A stretch of DNA of 64,000 nucleotides from an uncultured Anaerolineae bacterium (GTDB lineage Bacteria > Chloroflexota > Anaerolineae > J036 > Brachytrichaceae): contig CALHLE010000018.1 in assembly GCA_938034415.1 (NCBI GenBank), positions 1 to 64,000 on the forward strand. The letters run 5' to 3'. The position numbers and the translations under genes were made by a program. Of the stretch, positions 1 to 32,626 are shown piece by piece (within the stretch, counting starts at the first letter, position 1; the number at the start of each line of letters is the position of its first letter). Under the pieces are notes generated by a model, which saw only the letters and a list, made by a program, of their open reading frames with translations, ran no database searches and had not been told where the DNA came from.

Positions 1-560
1 TAGCCGATCATCAGCCCCAGCACCAGCAGCGTGATCGCACTGTGCACGCGGTGGGCGATCAGCATCACCAGCGAGAACACGGCAGCCGCGCCCAGCGACG
101 CCGCGCTCACCAGCCCGAACTCGCCCAAGAAGGCCGCGCGACCGAAGACGCTGACGCTGGCTGCTGTGCCGCCCAGCACCACCAGCGCCACGCCCAGGCT
201 CGCCCCGCTGCTGATGCCCAGCACAAACGGGTCGGCCAGCGGGTTACGAAAGAGCGTCTGCATCTGCAGGCCGGCCACGCTCAGCGCCGCGCCGGCCAGC
301 AGCGCGGTAATGGCCTTGGGCAAACGAAAGAGCAGGATGATGGTCTGCCAGGTGTCTTTGCTTGCTTGGCCACCCAGCAGTATGCGCACCACCTCGTCGA
401 GCGGGATGCGCACCGAGCCGATGGCCAGCGACAGCAGGAAGGCAAAGGCAGCGAAGGCGACCAACAACGCAAAGACGCCGCGCCGCATCCCCAGCGGAGG
501 GAAGGGGTTGGCCGGCGCTTGCGCTCGGCCAACCCCGGTTGAGGGCAGGGATAGGTTCAT
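1..560 (-). CDS. btuC: FecCD/BtuC-type ABC transporter permease, 3' end outside window
   Basis: Membrane permease of a class II metal-chelate importer, here probably for cobalamin or another corrinoid. The first 186 codons are visible. A charged N-terminus is followed by a hydrophobic helix (about residues 28-48), then the family segment SVRIPLDEVVRILLGG, the LFRLPKAITALLAGAALS stretch, and AGLQMQTLFRNPLADPFVLG, a hallmark of FecCD permeases. The start ATG (558-560) overlaps the stop of the upstream binding-protein gene as ATGA, so translation is probably coupled. The cobalamin riboswitch ahead of the operon is the reason for preferring corrinoid over iron-siderophore as substrate; the permease sequence alone does not decide this. 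The ATPase gene would lie beyond position 1. Confidence 0.9.
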   Translation of the reverse strand, partial: MNLSLPSTGVGRAQAPANPFPPLGMRRGVFALLVAFAAFAFLLSLAIGSVRIPLDEVVRILLGGQASKDTWQTIILLFRLPKAITALLAGAALSVAGLQMQTLFRNPLADPFVLGISSGASLGVALVVLGGTAASVSVFGRAAFLGEFGLVSAASLGAAAVFSLVMLIAHRVHSAITLLVLGLMIG

Positions 561-1909
561 TGCGTAGGCTCAGCGGGGATCTGCCGCCAGAACACCAGCT
601 CGTGATCCGGCAGGAGTTCAGGGTGCAAGATCTTCACCAAGTCCGCCAGCAACAGGTCGGGATTGCCCACGCCGGTCTCCCAGTAATCGTTGCCGCCGTT
701 TTCGTTCACGCGCTTGTCGTAGTTCCAGACGTTGCCGCTCTTGACGGCGGCCATCTCGGCGTAGCGCGGCTCCGCCTCCAGCACCGCCTTGATGCTGTCG
801 TAGCGCTGGAAGCTGGTTAGCAGCCACACGTCGGCCTTAACGGCCTTGTCGTACACCTCCTCGAAGGTGAGCGAGAGGCTGCCGGCGCTGGTGTCGTCGG
901 CGTAGAGATAAGCGCCGCCGGCGTCAATAACCAGCCTGGCAGCGTAGCTGCCGCCGCCCGGCACGCGCCACTTGTCCTTGCTGGCCATGCCGGAGATGAC
1001 GGTAGGCTTGTTCGCGGCTGCCTTCGCCTTCTCCGCCACTTCTTGGTAGCGCCGCTTCATCTTCGCATACTCTTCCTGCGCTTTGGCCTCCTTGTTGAAG
1101 AAGAGCGCGGTGAACTTGATCCACTCGGCGCGGCCCAGCGGCGTGCCCTCCATGTATTCGGCGTTGATCACGGTGGGGATTTTGGCTTCCAGCAACTTGG
1201 GGTGCGCGTCAAACTTCGGATCGCCCACGCCGAAGGTCATCACTAAGTCGGGCTGGGCAGCGATGGTTTTCTCGACGTTCACCTCGGCGCCGCCGCCGAT
1301 CTCGATCAATGCGCCGGCCTCGATGAGCGTGCGCACCTTAGGGTTGTTCACATACAGGAAACTATCCAGACCCAGCAGACGGTCGAGCAGGTCCAGCTTT
1401 TCCAGATGGGGAAGCTGGGTGGTGCTCATGGCGATCACATCCTTTGCCGGCGCTTCGATCACCAGCGCGTCGCCGACATCAGTCGGGGCCGGCGCGCCGC
1501 ATTGCACGATGACATACTTGAATTGCTGCTCGGCGCCGCGCCAGGGATTGAGCACGGTGACGACCTTGTAGTGCTTGTGATACTCCACCACGAAGCCGGT
1601 GGCGTCCTCGATGGTGACCTTCTCCGGGAAGTAGTCCACATCGGGGCTGAAGCTCGTGATGCAGCCGTCGGTCAGGTTGGTAGTTGGAGCTTCGACAGCC
1701 GGTGTAGGCGCGGCGGTCGGCTGCGGCTCGGGCATGGCCGTTGGTTGAGGCGGCGTGGTCGGTTGAGCCGGCACAGCCGTCGGTGCAGCCGATTGAGGCT
1801 GCGCCGGGGCGACGTTGGGCGCCGGCGCAGCGCACGCCGTGAGCACGGCGACAAACGAAGCGAGTGCGAGTAAGCGAGAAAGCGCTTGATCGTTGATCTT
1901 CGCGTTCAT
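557..1909 (-). CDS. btuF: Corrinoid-type ABC transporter substrate-binding lipoprotein
   Basis: Periplasmic-binding lipoprotein that would deliver corrinoid to the neighbouring permease. It has 450 residues. A signal peptide ends in a lipobox (SFVAVLTACAAP), followed by a Pro/Ala/Thr-rich tether to about residue 75, then a two-lobe BtuF/FepB-like domain with features such as VIAMSTTQLPHLEKLDLLDR and IAAQPDLVMTFGVGDP. The family is usually 270-350 residues; the excess is tether and N-terminal insert. No Shine-Dalgarno sequence precedes the ATG at 1909, whereas a very strong one lies about 150 bases upstream at a tiny leader ORF. Expression is very likely repressed by cobalamin through the riboswitch and terminator at 1975-2245. 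Iron-siderophore binding is the alternative if the riboswitch is disregarded. Confidence 0.88.
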   Translation of the reverse strand: MNAKINDQALSRLLALASFVAVLTACAAPAPNVAPAQPQSAAPTAVPAQPTTPPQPTAMPEPQPTAAPTPAVEAPTTNLTDGCITSFSPDVDYFPEKVTIEDATGFVVEYHKHYKVVTVLNPWRGAEQQFKYVIVQCGAPAPTDVGDALVIEAPAKDVIAMSTTQLPHLEKLDLLDRLLGLDSFLYVNNPKVRTLIEAGALIEIGGGAEVNVEKTIAAQPDLVMTFGVGDPKFDAHPKLLEAKIPTVINAEYMEGTPLGRAEWIKFTALFFNKEAKAQEEYAKMKRRYQEVAEKAKAAANKPTVISGMASKDKWRVPGGGSYAARLVIDAGGAYLYADDTSAGSLSLTFEEVYDKAVKADVWLLTSFQRYDSIKAVLEAEPRYAEMAAVKSGNVWNYDKRVNENGGNDYWETGVGNPDLLLADLVKILHPELLPDHELVFWRQIPAEPTQ

Positions 1910-1974: not shown

Positions 1975-2001
1975 AAAACCCCTGTCTTCCTCAGACAGGG
2001 G
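1975..2001 (-). terminator. Intrinsic terminator of the cobalamin riboswitch expression platform
   Basis: On the minus strand a perfect 9-bp stem (CCCCTGTCT / AGACAGGGG) with a 5-base loop is followed by TTTT. It lies 65 bases before btuF and after the aptamer, so it can stop transcription before the operon. The stop codon of the second leader ORF (1991-1993) falls at the end of its 5' arm. Confidence 0.82.
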
Positions 2002-2038
2002 TGATGAGCCAATTCGACGAACCACACACCGTGCTCAT
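1991..2038 (-). CDS. Candidate 15-residue leader peptide ending inside the terminator
   Basis: Short ORF reading MSTVCGSSNWLITPV. Its ATG overlaps the stop of the preceding 5-codon ORF as ATGA, so it could be translated by re-initiation. Its TGA occupies the last base of the terminator's 5' arm and the first loop bases; a ribosome stopping there would mask that arm. No homology is claimed. The support is position, the coupled start and the strong upstream ribosome-binding site. Confidence 0.4.
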   Translation of the reverse strand: MSTVCGSSNWLITPV

Positions 2039-2052
2039 GGTCCGTTGATCAT
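2035..2052 (-). CDS. Candidate 5-residue leader ORF (MINGP) with strong ribosome-binding site
   Basis: ATG at 2052 is preceded, six bases upstream, by AAGGAGG (minus strand, 2065-2059), the strongest Shine-Dalgarno sequence near the btuF operon. It encodes only MINGP before TGA. The mismatch between an excellent ribosome-binding site and a trivial product suggests a regulatory role. Confidence 0.42.
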   Translation of the reverse strand: MINGP

Positions 2053-2057
2053 GCTTC

Positions 2058-2078
2058 ACCTCCTTGGTCCGAGAAGGT
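2058..2078 (-). promoter_or_regulatory. Hairpin sequestering the leader Shine-Dalgarno
   Basis: On the minus strand ACCTTCT (2078-2072) can pair over seven positions, one of them G-U, with AGGAGGT (2064-2058), closing a 7-base loop. This would bury the leader ribosome-binding site. It directly follows the cobalamin aptamer, as expected for a translational expression platform. Confidence 0.5.
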
Positions 2079-2245
2079 TGCGCAGTGCTGGTCGAGGCAA
2101 GCGTCCTGGCTCGCGCGCTCGCGTTGGCGCGCTTACAGTTGCGGCACAGCGCCGGACTTTCACCGGCTTCCACCTTTAAGCCCTAGCTTCCGAGCTTTTC
2201 AGCCTGCGCAGCGCGCAGGCATCGGGTCACCTCGACGTATTCACT
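2079..2245 (-). ncRNA. Cobalamin (B12) riboswitch aptamer
   Basis: The minus strand carries the conserved cobalamin-element segments in order: GGTGGAAGCCGGTGAAAGTC, then GCTGTGCCGCAACTGTAAGC (B12-box core), then AGCCAGGACGCTTGCC. Hairpin-forming GC-rich arms lie between and before them. The 5' and 3' edges are approximate. It sits between a TATAAT box and the btuF-btuC operon, as in known B12-repressed uptake operons. In that class, adenosylcobalamin or a related corrinoid binding shuts off expression. Confidence 0.92.
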
Positions 2246-2255
2246 TGGCGGAAGG

Positions 2256-2261
2256 ATTATA
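2256..2261 (-). promoter_or_regulatory. Extended -10 promoter of the riboswitch-btuF transcript
   Basis: Minus strand TTGCTATAAT: a perfect TATAAT with an upstream TGn extension and no clear -35 box. Transcription would start just ahead of the aptamer. Confidence 0.7.
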
Positions 2262-32532: not shown

Positions 32533-32626
32533 GAGGGTGGATGCGCCCCGGTGGGCGTCCTGGTCTTCAAAACCAGTGGCAGGTTGCTCAGCAAGCTGCG
32601 GTGAGTTCGACTCTCATCCGCCCTCG
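32533..32626 (+). tRNA. selC: Selenocysteine tRNA (anticodon TCA)
   Basis: 94 bases with the specific tRNA-Sec layout: an 8-bp acceptor (GAGGGTGG/CCGCCCTC), a 6-bp D stem closing a 4-base loop (GCGCCC CGGT GGGCGT), anticodon loop CTTCAAA with TCA in a 5-bp stem CTGGT/ACCAG, a long variable arm (GCAGGTTGC...GCAAGCTGC, one mismatch), T-arm GTGAG TTCGACT CTCAT and discriminator G. It implies the organism decodes UGA as selenocysteine. SelA, SelB and SelD are not in the window. Confidence 0.95.

Follow-up and report, generated by a model that had tools for sequence, protein, structure and literature searches.

A B12 riboswitch of uncultured Anaerolineae with a conserved five-codon Pro-stop micro-ORF between its switching hairpin and an intrinsic terminator

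The cobalamin riboswitch preceding a btuF-like gene in this Anaerolineae genome is followed, ahead of an intrinsic terminator, by a five-codon ORF which ends in Pro-stop, is conserved in relatives and has its Shine-Dalgarno (SD) sequence in the 3′ arm of the switching hairpin. We consider the element to be a transcription-attenuating B12 riboswitch with a built-in, conserved and riboswitch-gated Pro-stop micro-ORF, in which a slowly releasing ribosome would aid antitermination in most ORF-bearing lineages. The probability of this reading is, in our estimate, about 0.5. The window referred to below is the whole stretch of 64,000 nucleotides that was analysed.

Named relatives place the source genome in the Thermoflexales/Candidatus Roseilinea group of the Chloroflexota. 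All elements of the locus are located on the minus strand, in the order aptamer, hairpin, ORF1 (the five-codon micro-ORF), ORF2, terminator and btuF. A candidate −10 promoter element, TATAAT, can be read directly at 2256..2261. The aptamer (2079..2244) is the only RF00174 match in the source genome, found by a covariance-model search at 2244-2079 with 48.7 bits, above the gathering score of 31.5 bits. It is followed by a P13-like switching hairpin, ACCUUCU-CGGACCA-AGGAGGU (2058..2078), seen in the letters as well as in the predicted fold, with arm A (ACCUUCU) at 2078-2072, the loop at 2071-2065 and arm B (AGGAGGU) at 2064-2058. The SD of the micro-ORF, AAGGAGGUG (2057..2065), is formed by arm B, as had been proposed from the sequence. 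ORF1 (2035..2052) reads ATG ATC AAC GGA CCA TGA, i.e. M-I-N-G-P-stop, and shares an ATGA with ORF2 (1991..2038), which has 15 codons, MSTVCGSSNWLITPV-stop. The TGA of ORF2, at 1993-1991, lies at the end of the 5′ arm of the terminator hairpin ACCCCTGTCT-GAGGA-AGACAGGGGT (1978..2002; arm C 2002-1993, loop 1992-1988, arm D 1987-1978; predicted −18.3 kcal/mol), behind which a moderate U tract, TTTCGTTT, is found. The regulated gene, P0001 (557..1909), encodes the btuF-like substrate-binding component of a B12 ABC transporter (Pfam PF01497 Peripla_BP_2, E 1e-27); the start of a btuC/FecCD-like permease gene (1..563, cut by the contig end, start approximate) was recognised by reading the translation by eye. 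The btuF ATG at 1909 is 125 nt from the end of ORF1 and 81 nt from that of ORF2, and has no SD (CCACACACCAACCATG). This is ordinary here, since an SD-like motif near the start is present in only 17 of the 44 long ORFs obtained by crude ORF calling in the 64-kb window. The original prediction had described the same parts, including the buried SD, the ATGA overlap and the SD-less btuF, and its description is accurate on reading the sequence; the structure prediction and Cobalamin covariance model that it named as a check likewise recover the aptamer, the P13-like hairpin and the terminator.

The same P13-like hairpin is present in nearly all members of the family. In the window, the CGG of the loop CGGACCA could, by eye, pair with CCG of L5, as in an L5-L13 kissing loop that would join aptamer and expression platform, and many relatives have the loop CGUGAYCA without a clear L5 pairing. 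A relative without micro-ORF and terminator (L191, G042:C122) has the same hairpin, with 4 nt separating the SD from the ATG that starts a long gene, which suggests that arm B can act as a genuine ribosome-binding site. By eye, this gene is homologous to the gene which in L043 and L058 lies downstream of a micro-ORF and terminator, and evolution appears here to have switched between control of transcription and control of translation; a Pfam search with the L191/L043 gene matched no family.

Conservation of the micro-ORF was studied by searching the leader DNA against 41 genomes and RF00174 against 28 genomes of the family and 199 of the class, which yielded 160 oriented riboswitches. The class sample was drawn from the best-scoring RF00174 matches, a regular expression served to find the hairpins and a simple scan the terminators. 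In almost all riboswitches of the family, the P13-like switching hairpin is present and the ORF behind it has exactly five codons (MINGP, MTNAP, MPNAP, MANAP, MINAP, MICAP, MSQAP, MPRAP and MIRAP), the exceptions being MAEVT, MAHAS, MLDTS, MRN, MP and MRHAPV. The consensus is M-x-[N/R/x]-[A/G]-P-stop, with five codons here and 2–8 codons in other lineages. The family ORFs are anchored to the SD, at 24.2 nt (sd 2.1). In 1000 dinucleotide shuffles of the 100 nt 3′ of the hairpin, a micro-ORF of at most eight codons is expected in a mean of 1.0 (maximum 5) of the 36 family riboswitches, versus 29 observed; exactly five codons are found in 26 of 36 versus 0.12, and Pro-stop in 24 of 36 versus 0.07, all of these being counts over related, hence not independent, family members.

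Three further tests guard against the effect of kinship, namely an unconstrained genome-wide pattern, the pattern of substitutions and the location of the motif. When hairpin, SD and ATG were searched genome-wide with no ORF length set, all 16 riboswitch loci had five codons, and two coincidental off-target loci had ORFs of 9 and 30 codons. Pro occupies codon 5 in 28 of 31 family ORFs, written as CCA, CCG, CCT or CCC, and the stop is TGA (21), TAA (6) or TAG (4). The nine MIRAP leaders show synonymous differences only, start (GTG or ATG) and stop (TAG or TGA) included. The 28 family genomes contain 28 matches to SD-ATG-xx-[AG]P-stop; B12 riboswitches account for 23, and the other five are in 23S rRNA (three, recognised by sequence) and at two unrelated sites. 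The reversed control pattern has no match in the same 28 genomes, and no such micro-ORF occurs in 12 TPP riboswitch leaders of the family. The shuffles, the unconstrained pattern and the comparison with TPP riboswitches exclude a chance origin of ORF1, and its conservation among relatives supports the leader ORF of the earlier proposal as a conserved coding sequence. The predominance of GCA at codon 4 hints at some constraint on the RNA besides coding. Two pattern matches, L095 in an archaeal and L106 in a Clostridia bin, have no aptamer and were discarded as coincidental. In another relative (L192, G042:C90), the same riboswitch has kept its terminator and carries a degraded ORF, with ACG at the start and the Pro-stop lost; the micro-ORF appears to decay as one unit.

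Outside the family (about 20 taxonomic families), a micro-ORF is found in 22 of 102 hairpin-bearing riboswitches versus a shuffle mean of 1.7, and eight of these 22 end in Pro (MARAP, MAQGP, MAKSP, MIRGP, MTYGP, MIHGP, MFDRP and MTIP) versus 0.13 expected. The Pro-specific pattern adds MVNGP, MCQAP, MNHDP and MIHAP. Other classes of the phylum contribute MARAP, MTRAP, MVAQMF, MVKPSE and MVLASP; MARAP, MTRAP, MVKPSE and MVLASP are immediately 5′ of terminators. In the other families, the gap between the stop and the terminator stem has a mean of 1.7 nt (sd 3.3, range −5 to +7, leaving out one distant case). When its P site holds the last sense codon, a bacterial ribosome covers about 9 nt past the stop; thus, a terminating ribosome in these lineages would cover the terminator 5′ arm, the geometry of a leader-peptide attenuator, in which the position of the ribosome decides on the terminator. 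By contrast, ORF1 of the window stops 32 nt short of the terminator, and in its family the distance is 27–93 nt, with one GTG-started case at 106 nt. The idea that a ribosome halted at a leader stop lies over the terminator arm is therefore in keeping with the geometry of many related lineages but not with that of ORF1 in the window. The micro-ORF is not essential to switching, since 56 riboswitches of the class have a similar hairpin and terminator without such an ORF. The search for leader ORFs in relatives, suggested together with that idea, has thus a mixed outcome, with ORF1 kept in the family, the ORF2 stop not kept and many homologous riboswitches lacking the ORF.

Folding predicts an antiterminator in the window (1990..2073) in which CUCGGAC (2073-2067) pairs with GUCUGAG (1996-1990) and AGG-AGGUGAAGC (2064-2053) with GCUCAUCACCCCU (2009-1997). 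The locus accordingly has both parts of a transcription-attenuation platform, an intrinsic terminator before the gene and a predicted antiterminator that is mutually exclusive with it, and P13, antiterminator and terminator are, as modelled, a complete classical switch that would need no ribosome. Since the antiterminator also buries the SD, the latter is predicted to be paired in both folded states. A ribosome modelled on ORF1, at its start or its stop, leaves the terminator free and abolishes the antiterminator at equilibrium. As far as the models of footprint and energy go, this argues against the earlier view that the window needs a ribosome to overcome its terminator: the antiterminator forms without one, and across the 32-nt gap the terminator still forms in the presence of a ribosome on ORF1.

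Relatives pair differently. In the closest ones, the P13 5′ arm CCUUCUC is complementary to the terminator-loop letters GAGAAGG, with −11.9 kcal/mol for most g1/g3 members, and a ribosome holding P13 open there would therefore help antitermination. In other families, AAGGGG pairs with CCCCUU, with and without a micro-ORF and slightly more strongly with it. No antiterminator common to the whole family was found and no single rule fits, because there are three pairings (arm A with GAGAAGG, loop and arm B with the terminator arm, and AAGGGG with CCCCUU); most single-sequence antiterminator pairings do not beat letter shuffles. In the MIRAP-type leaders L050, L052, L194, L193 and L189, the SD-ATG spacer (GGNAGAAC) and the letters 5′ of the terminator arm (GUUCUNCC) seem to co-vary, which points to an antiterminator that may include the ribosome-binding site of the micro-ORF. 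Given that an antiterminator exists with and without the ORF, the micro-ORF is best regarded as an addition to a working attenuator.

From this arrangement we infer a response to B12, translation of the micro-ORF, a pause at its stop and the direction in which the ribosome acts. With B12, P13 would be held closed, the SD hidden and the terminator formed. Without it, P13 would open, arm B could pair with the terminator 5′ arm as a ribosome-free antiterminator, and a ribosome could load on the micro-ORF. Pro-stop would then slow release, so that the ribosome dwells at the stop; Pro before a stop codon is a preferred site of trans-translation, that is, of slow termination (PMC3985003). In most micro-ORF-bearing Chloroflexota lineages, the dwelling ribosome would sit on the terminator 5′ arm and add to antitermination. 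In the family of the window, where the terminator appears to have moved at least 27 nt away, only an indirect action of the ribosome would be possible; it might, for instance, hold P13 open and thereby let arm A pair with the terminator-loop GAGAAGG of the close relatives. Translation probably matters, since the start codon, the short length and the final Pro of the micro-ORF are under selection. Ribosome-assisted antitermination is favoured in the other ORF-bearing lineages, because Pro-stop slows release and most of them have the stop directly at the terminator; it is plausible in these sister lineages and, on the same modelling, not well supported in the window itself. A wider generalisation, which we put forward only tentatively, is a phylum-wide platform in which a metabolite, beyond mere RNA pairing, licenses one ribosome onto a five-codon Pro-stop micro-ORF and slow termination parks it against an intrinsic terminator, as a minimal roadblock gated by the metabolite.

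The micro-ORF could also be translated without any role in attenuation, which would then be purely RNA-based; it might, for instance, absorb ribosomes drawn by the SD-like arm and stop them before the terminator melts. The two folds of the window are predicted to be isoenergetic, at −47.9 kcal/mol for P13 plus terminator and −47.9 kcal/mol for the antiterminator, and the pairing of arm B with arm C is common to ORF-bearing and ORF-less relatives, as such a switch would have it. Nevertheless, loss of the ATG would be a simpler way to avoid translation than the conservation of a well-spaced start codon and a release-slowing Pro-stop, and a ribosome ending at −5 to +7 would still cover the terminator arm, so that we regard this account as possible but somewhat unlikely. 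Translation might, conversely, promote termination, the SD-bound ribosome barring arm B from the terminator arm and the leader sensing B12 together with translation capacity. This would agree with the predicted antiterminator of the window and of the MIRAP group, which uses the SD, the spacer and the ORF, and with the modelled ribosome, which removes the antiterminator and leaves the terminator. However, the stop of the other lineages is on the terminator arm, where a ribosome would block termination, and GAGAAGG in the terminator loop of the close relatives can pair with the freed arm A; a termination-promoting role is accordingly doubtful.

The original prediction had assigned the decisive step to ORF2, namely that in this species the ribosome re-initiates at ATGA and, on ending ORF2, lies over the 5′ arm of the terminator. 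The ORF2 stop does coincide with the last base of the arm, and the same position recurs in L038, which is 96% identical, and in five others that reach it by chance-like GTG or TTG starts. The overlap itself is trivial, because the Pro codon CCA followed by TGA spells ATGA. An overlapping NTG start is present in no more than 14 of 31 family leaders, and the stop falls within the terminator arm in seven of these 14 and elsewhere in the other seven. Moreover, the TGA in the arm derives from the conserved loop letters TGAGAAG/TGAAG and not from a conserved frame. With 17 of 31 leaders lacking the overlapping start and a variable stop position, ORF2 is ruled out as a conserved element, the part of the mechanism built on it is unsupported, and re-initiation onto ORF2 is very improbable. 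Hardly credible at all is an untranslated micro-ORF whose codons 4–5 and stop are kept as pairing letters (ACC with GGU of the SD, or a hairpin in the ORF), as could be imagined from the dominance of GCA at codon 4 and from codons 3–5 lying within a hairpin in several members, but which is at odds with the four Pro codons, the three stops, the synonymous-only variation of MIRAP, GTG for ATG and the retention of Pro-stop at other ORF lengths (MP, MTIP, MVLASP).

The leader that we favour, a transcription-attenuating riboswitch with a gated micro-ORF, resembles several known systems in part. RF00174 riboswitches that attenuate transcription have the same aptamer, switching hairpin, antiterminator and intrinsic terminator, and the ORF-less relatives in the class are exactly so; the difference is the conserved gated micro-ORF between switching hairpin and terminator. 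In Mycobacterium tuberculosis, the ppe2 B12 riboswitch is combined with the uORF uPPE2, which has an AUGA overlap with the main gene and reinitiation on it (Kipkorir et al. 2024, PMC11260477), and translation of the uORF is required for expression (PMC11260477). Both leaders have a B12 riboswitch over a leader ORF with its own SD, an AUGA stop/start overlap and an SD-less downstream gene (PMC11260477). In ppe2 only, the uORF overlaps the main gene, and control is translational, by termination-reinitiation, without an intrinsic terminator. In the window, the conserved ORF has five codons, ends before an intrinsic terminator and is more than 100 nt from the main gene; neither ORF overlaps or is coupled to btuF, given the gaps of 125 and 81 nt. 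The arrangement had been put forward as one not known as a described class; the combination of B12 riboswitch and AUGA uORF is in fact known from ppe2, and what stands is its association with an intrinsic terminator. A literature search, made mostly without subscription papers, found no riboswitch-gated micro-ORF abutting an intrinsic terminator and returned only the M. tuberculosis case as a similar arrangement.

TnaC is an arrest leader with Pro-stop in which the stop codon is in the A site. In CruR, a leading ribosome stalled at RAPP prevents Rho-dependent termination (PMC9426467). The micro-ORF shares with TnaC and the CruR uORF its shortness, a Pro ending the (here putatively) stalled peptide and a held ribosome that would prevent termination, and differs in that B12 would be sensed by RNA and not by the nascent peptide, in its five residues and in the intrinsic rather than Rho-dependent terminator. 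As in arrest peptides, Pro is the last residue before the A-site codon (Pro5-stop in 28 of 31 family ORFs). The R-A-P at the P site of the MIRAP, MARAP and MPRAP variants recalls the RAPP/RAGP peptides ApdA, ApdP and SecM, and arrest at RAPP requires a Pro in the A site (PMC10951233). Unlike these, the micro-ORF places a stop codon in the A site, lacks a long N-terminal regulator module and, in many variants, has N, Q or H instead of R. The Salmonella mgtA leader has a short ORF in a switching 5′ UTR. Leader ORFs are likewise embedded in the switching 5′ UTR of mgtCBR (PMC3641672), and both Salmonella leaders differ from ours in responding to other signals, sensed via translation of the ORF, and in the RNA itself.

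Riboswitches are usually classed as acting on transcription or on translation. If the favoured mechanism is true, the leader would represent a hybrid, with the riboswitch read by the ribosome and the outcome passed on to RNA polymerase, and few known conserved leader peptides would be shorter than that of the micro-ORF. About 50 natural variants, with or without the ORF, with or without Pro and with the stop near or far from the terminator, are available for testing the share of translation in attenuation.

Duplicated B12 riboswitches with micro-ORFs are found in two genomes, about 2.7 kb apart in one (G017:C68, 28276 and 30932; MINAP and MPRAP) and about 23 kb apart in the other (G020:C106, 13357 and 36955; MIRAP and MIGAP). 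B12 riboswitches of this class often control secreted alpha-alpha toroid proteins with squalene-cyclase-like repeats (L090, L050, L131, L169), and the downstream protein of L090 matches Pfam SQHop_cyclase_C. These proteins resemble the intrinsic-factor/transcobalamin fold and are possible extracellular B12 binders. The window also contains a selenocysteine tRNA with the anticodon TCA at 32533-32625 on the plus strand (RF01852, 73.2 bits), on which ARAGORN agrees.
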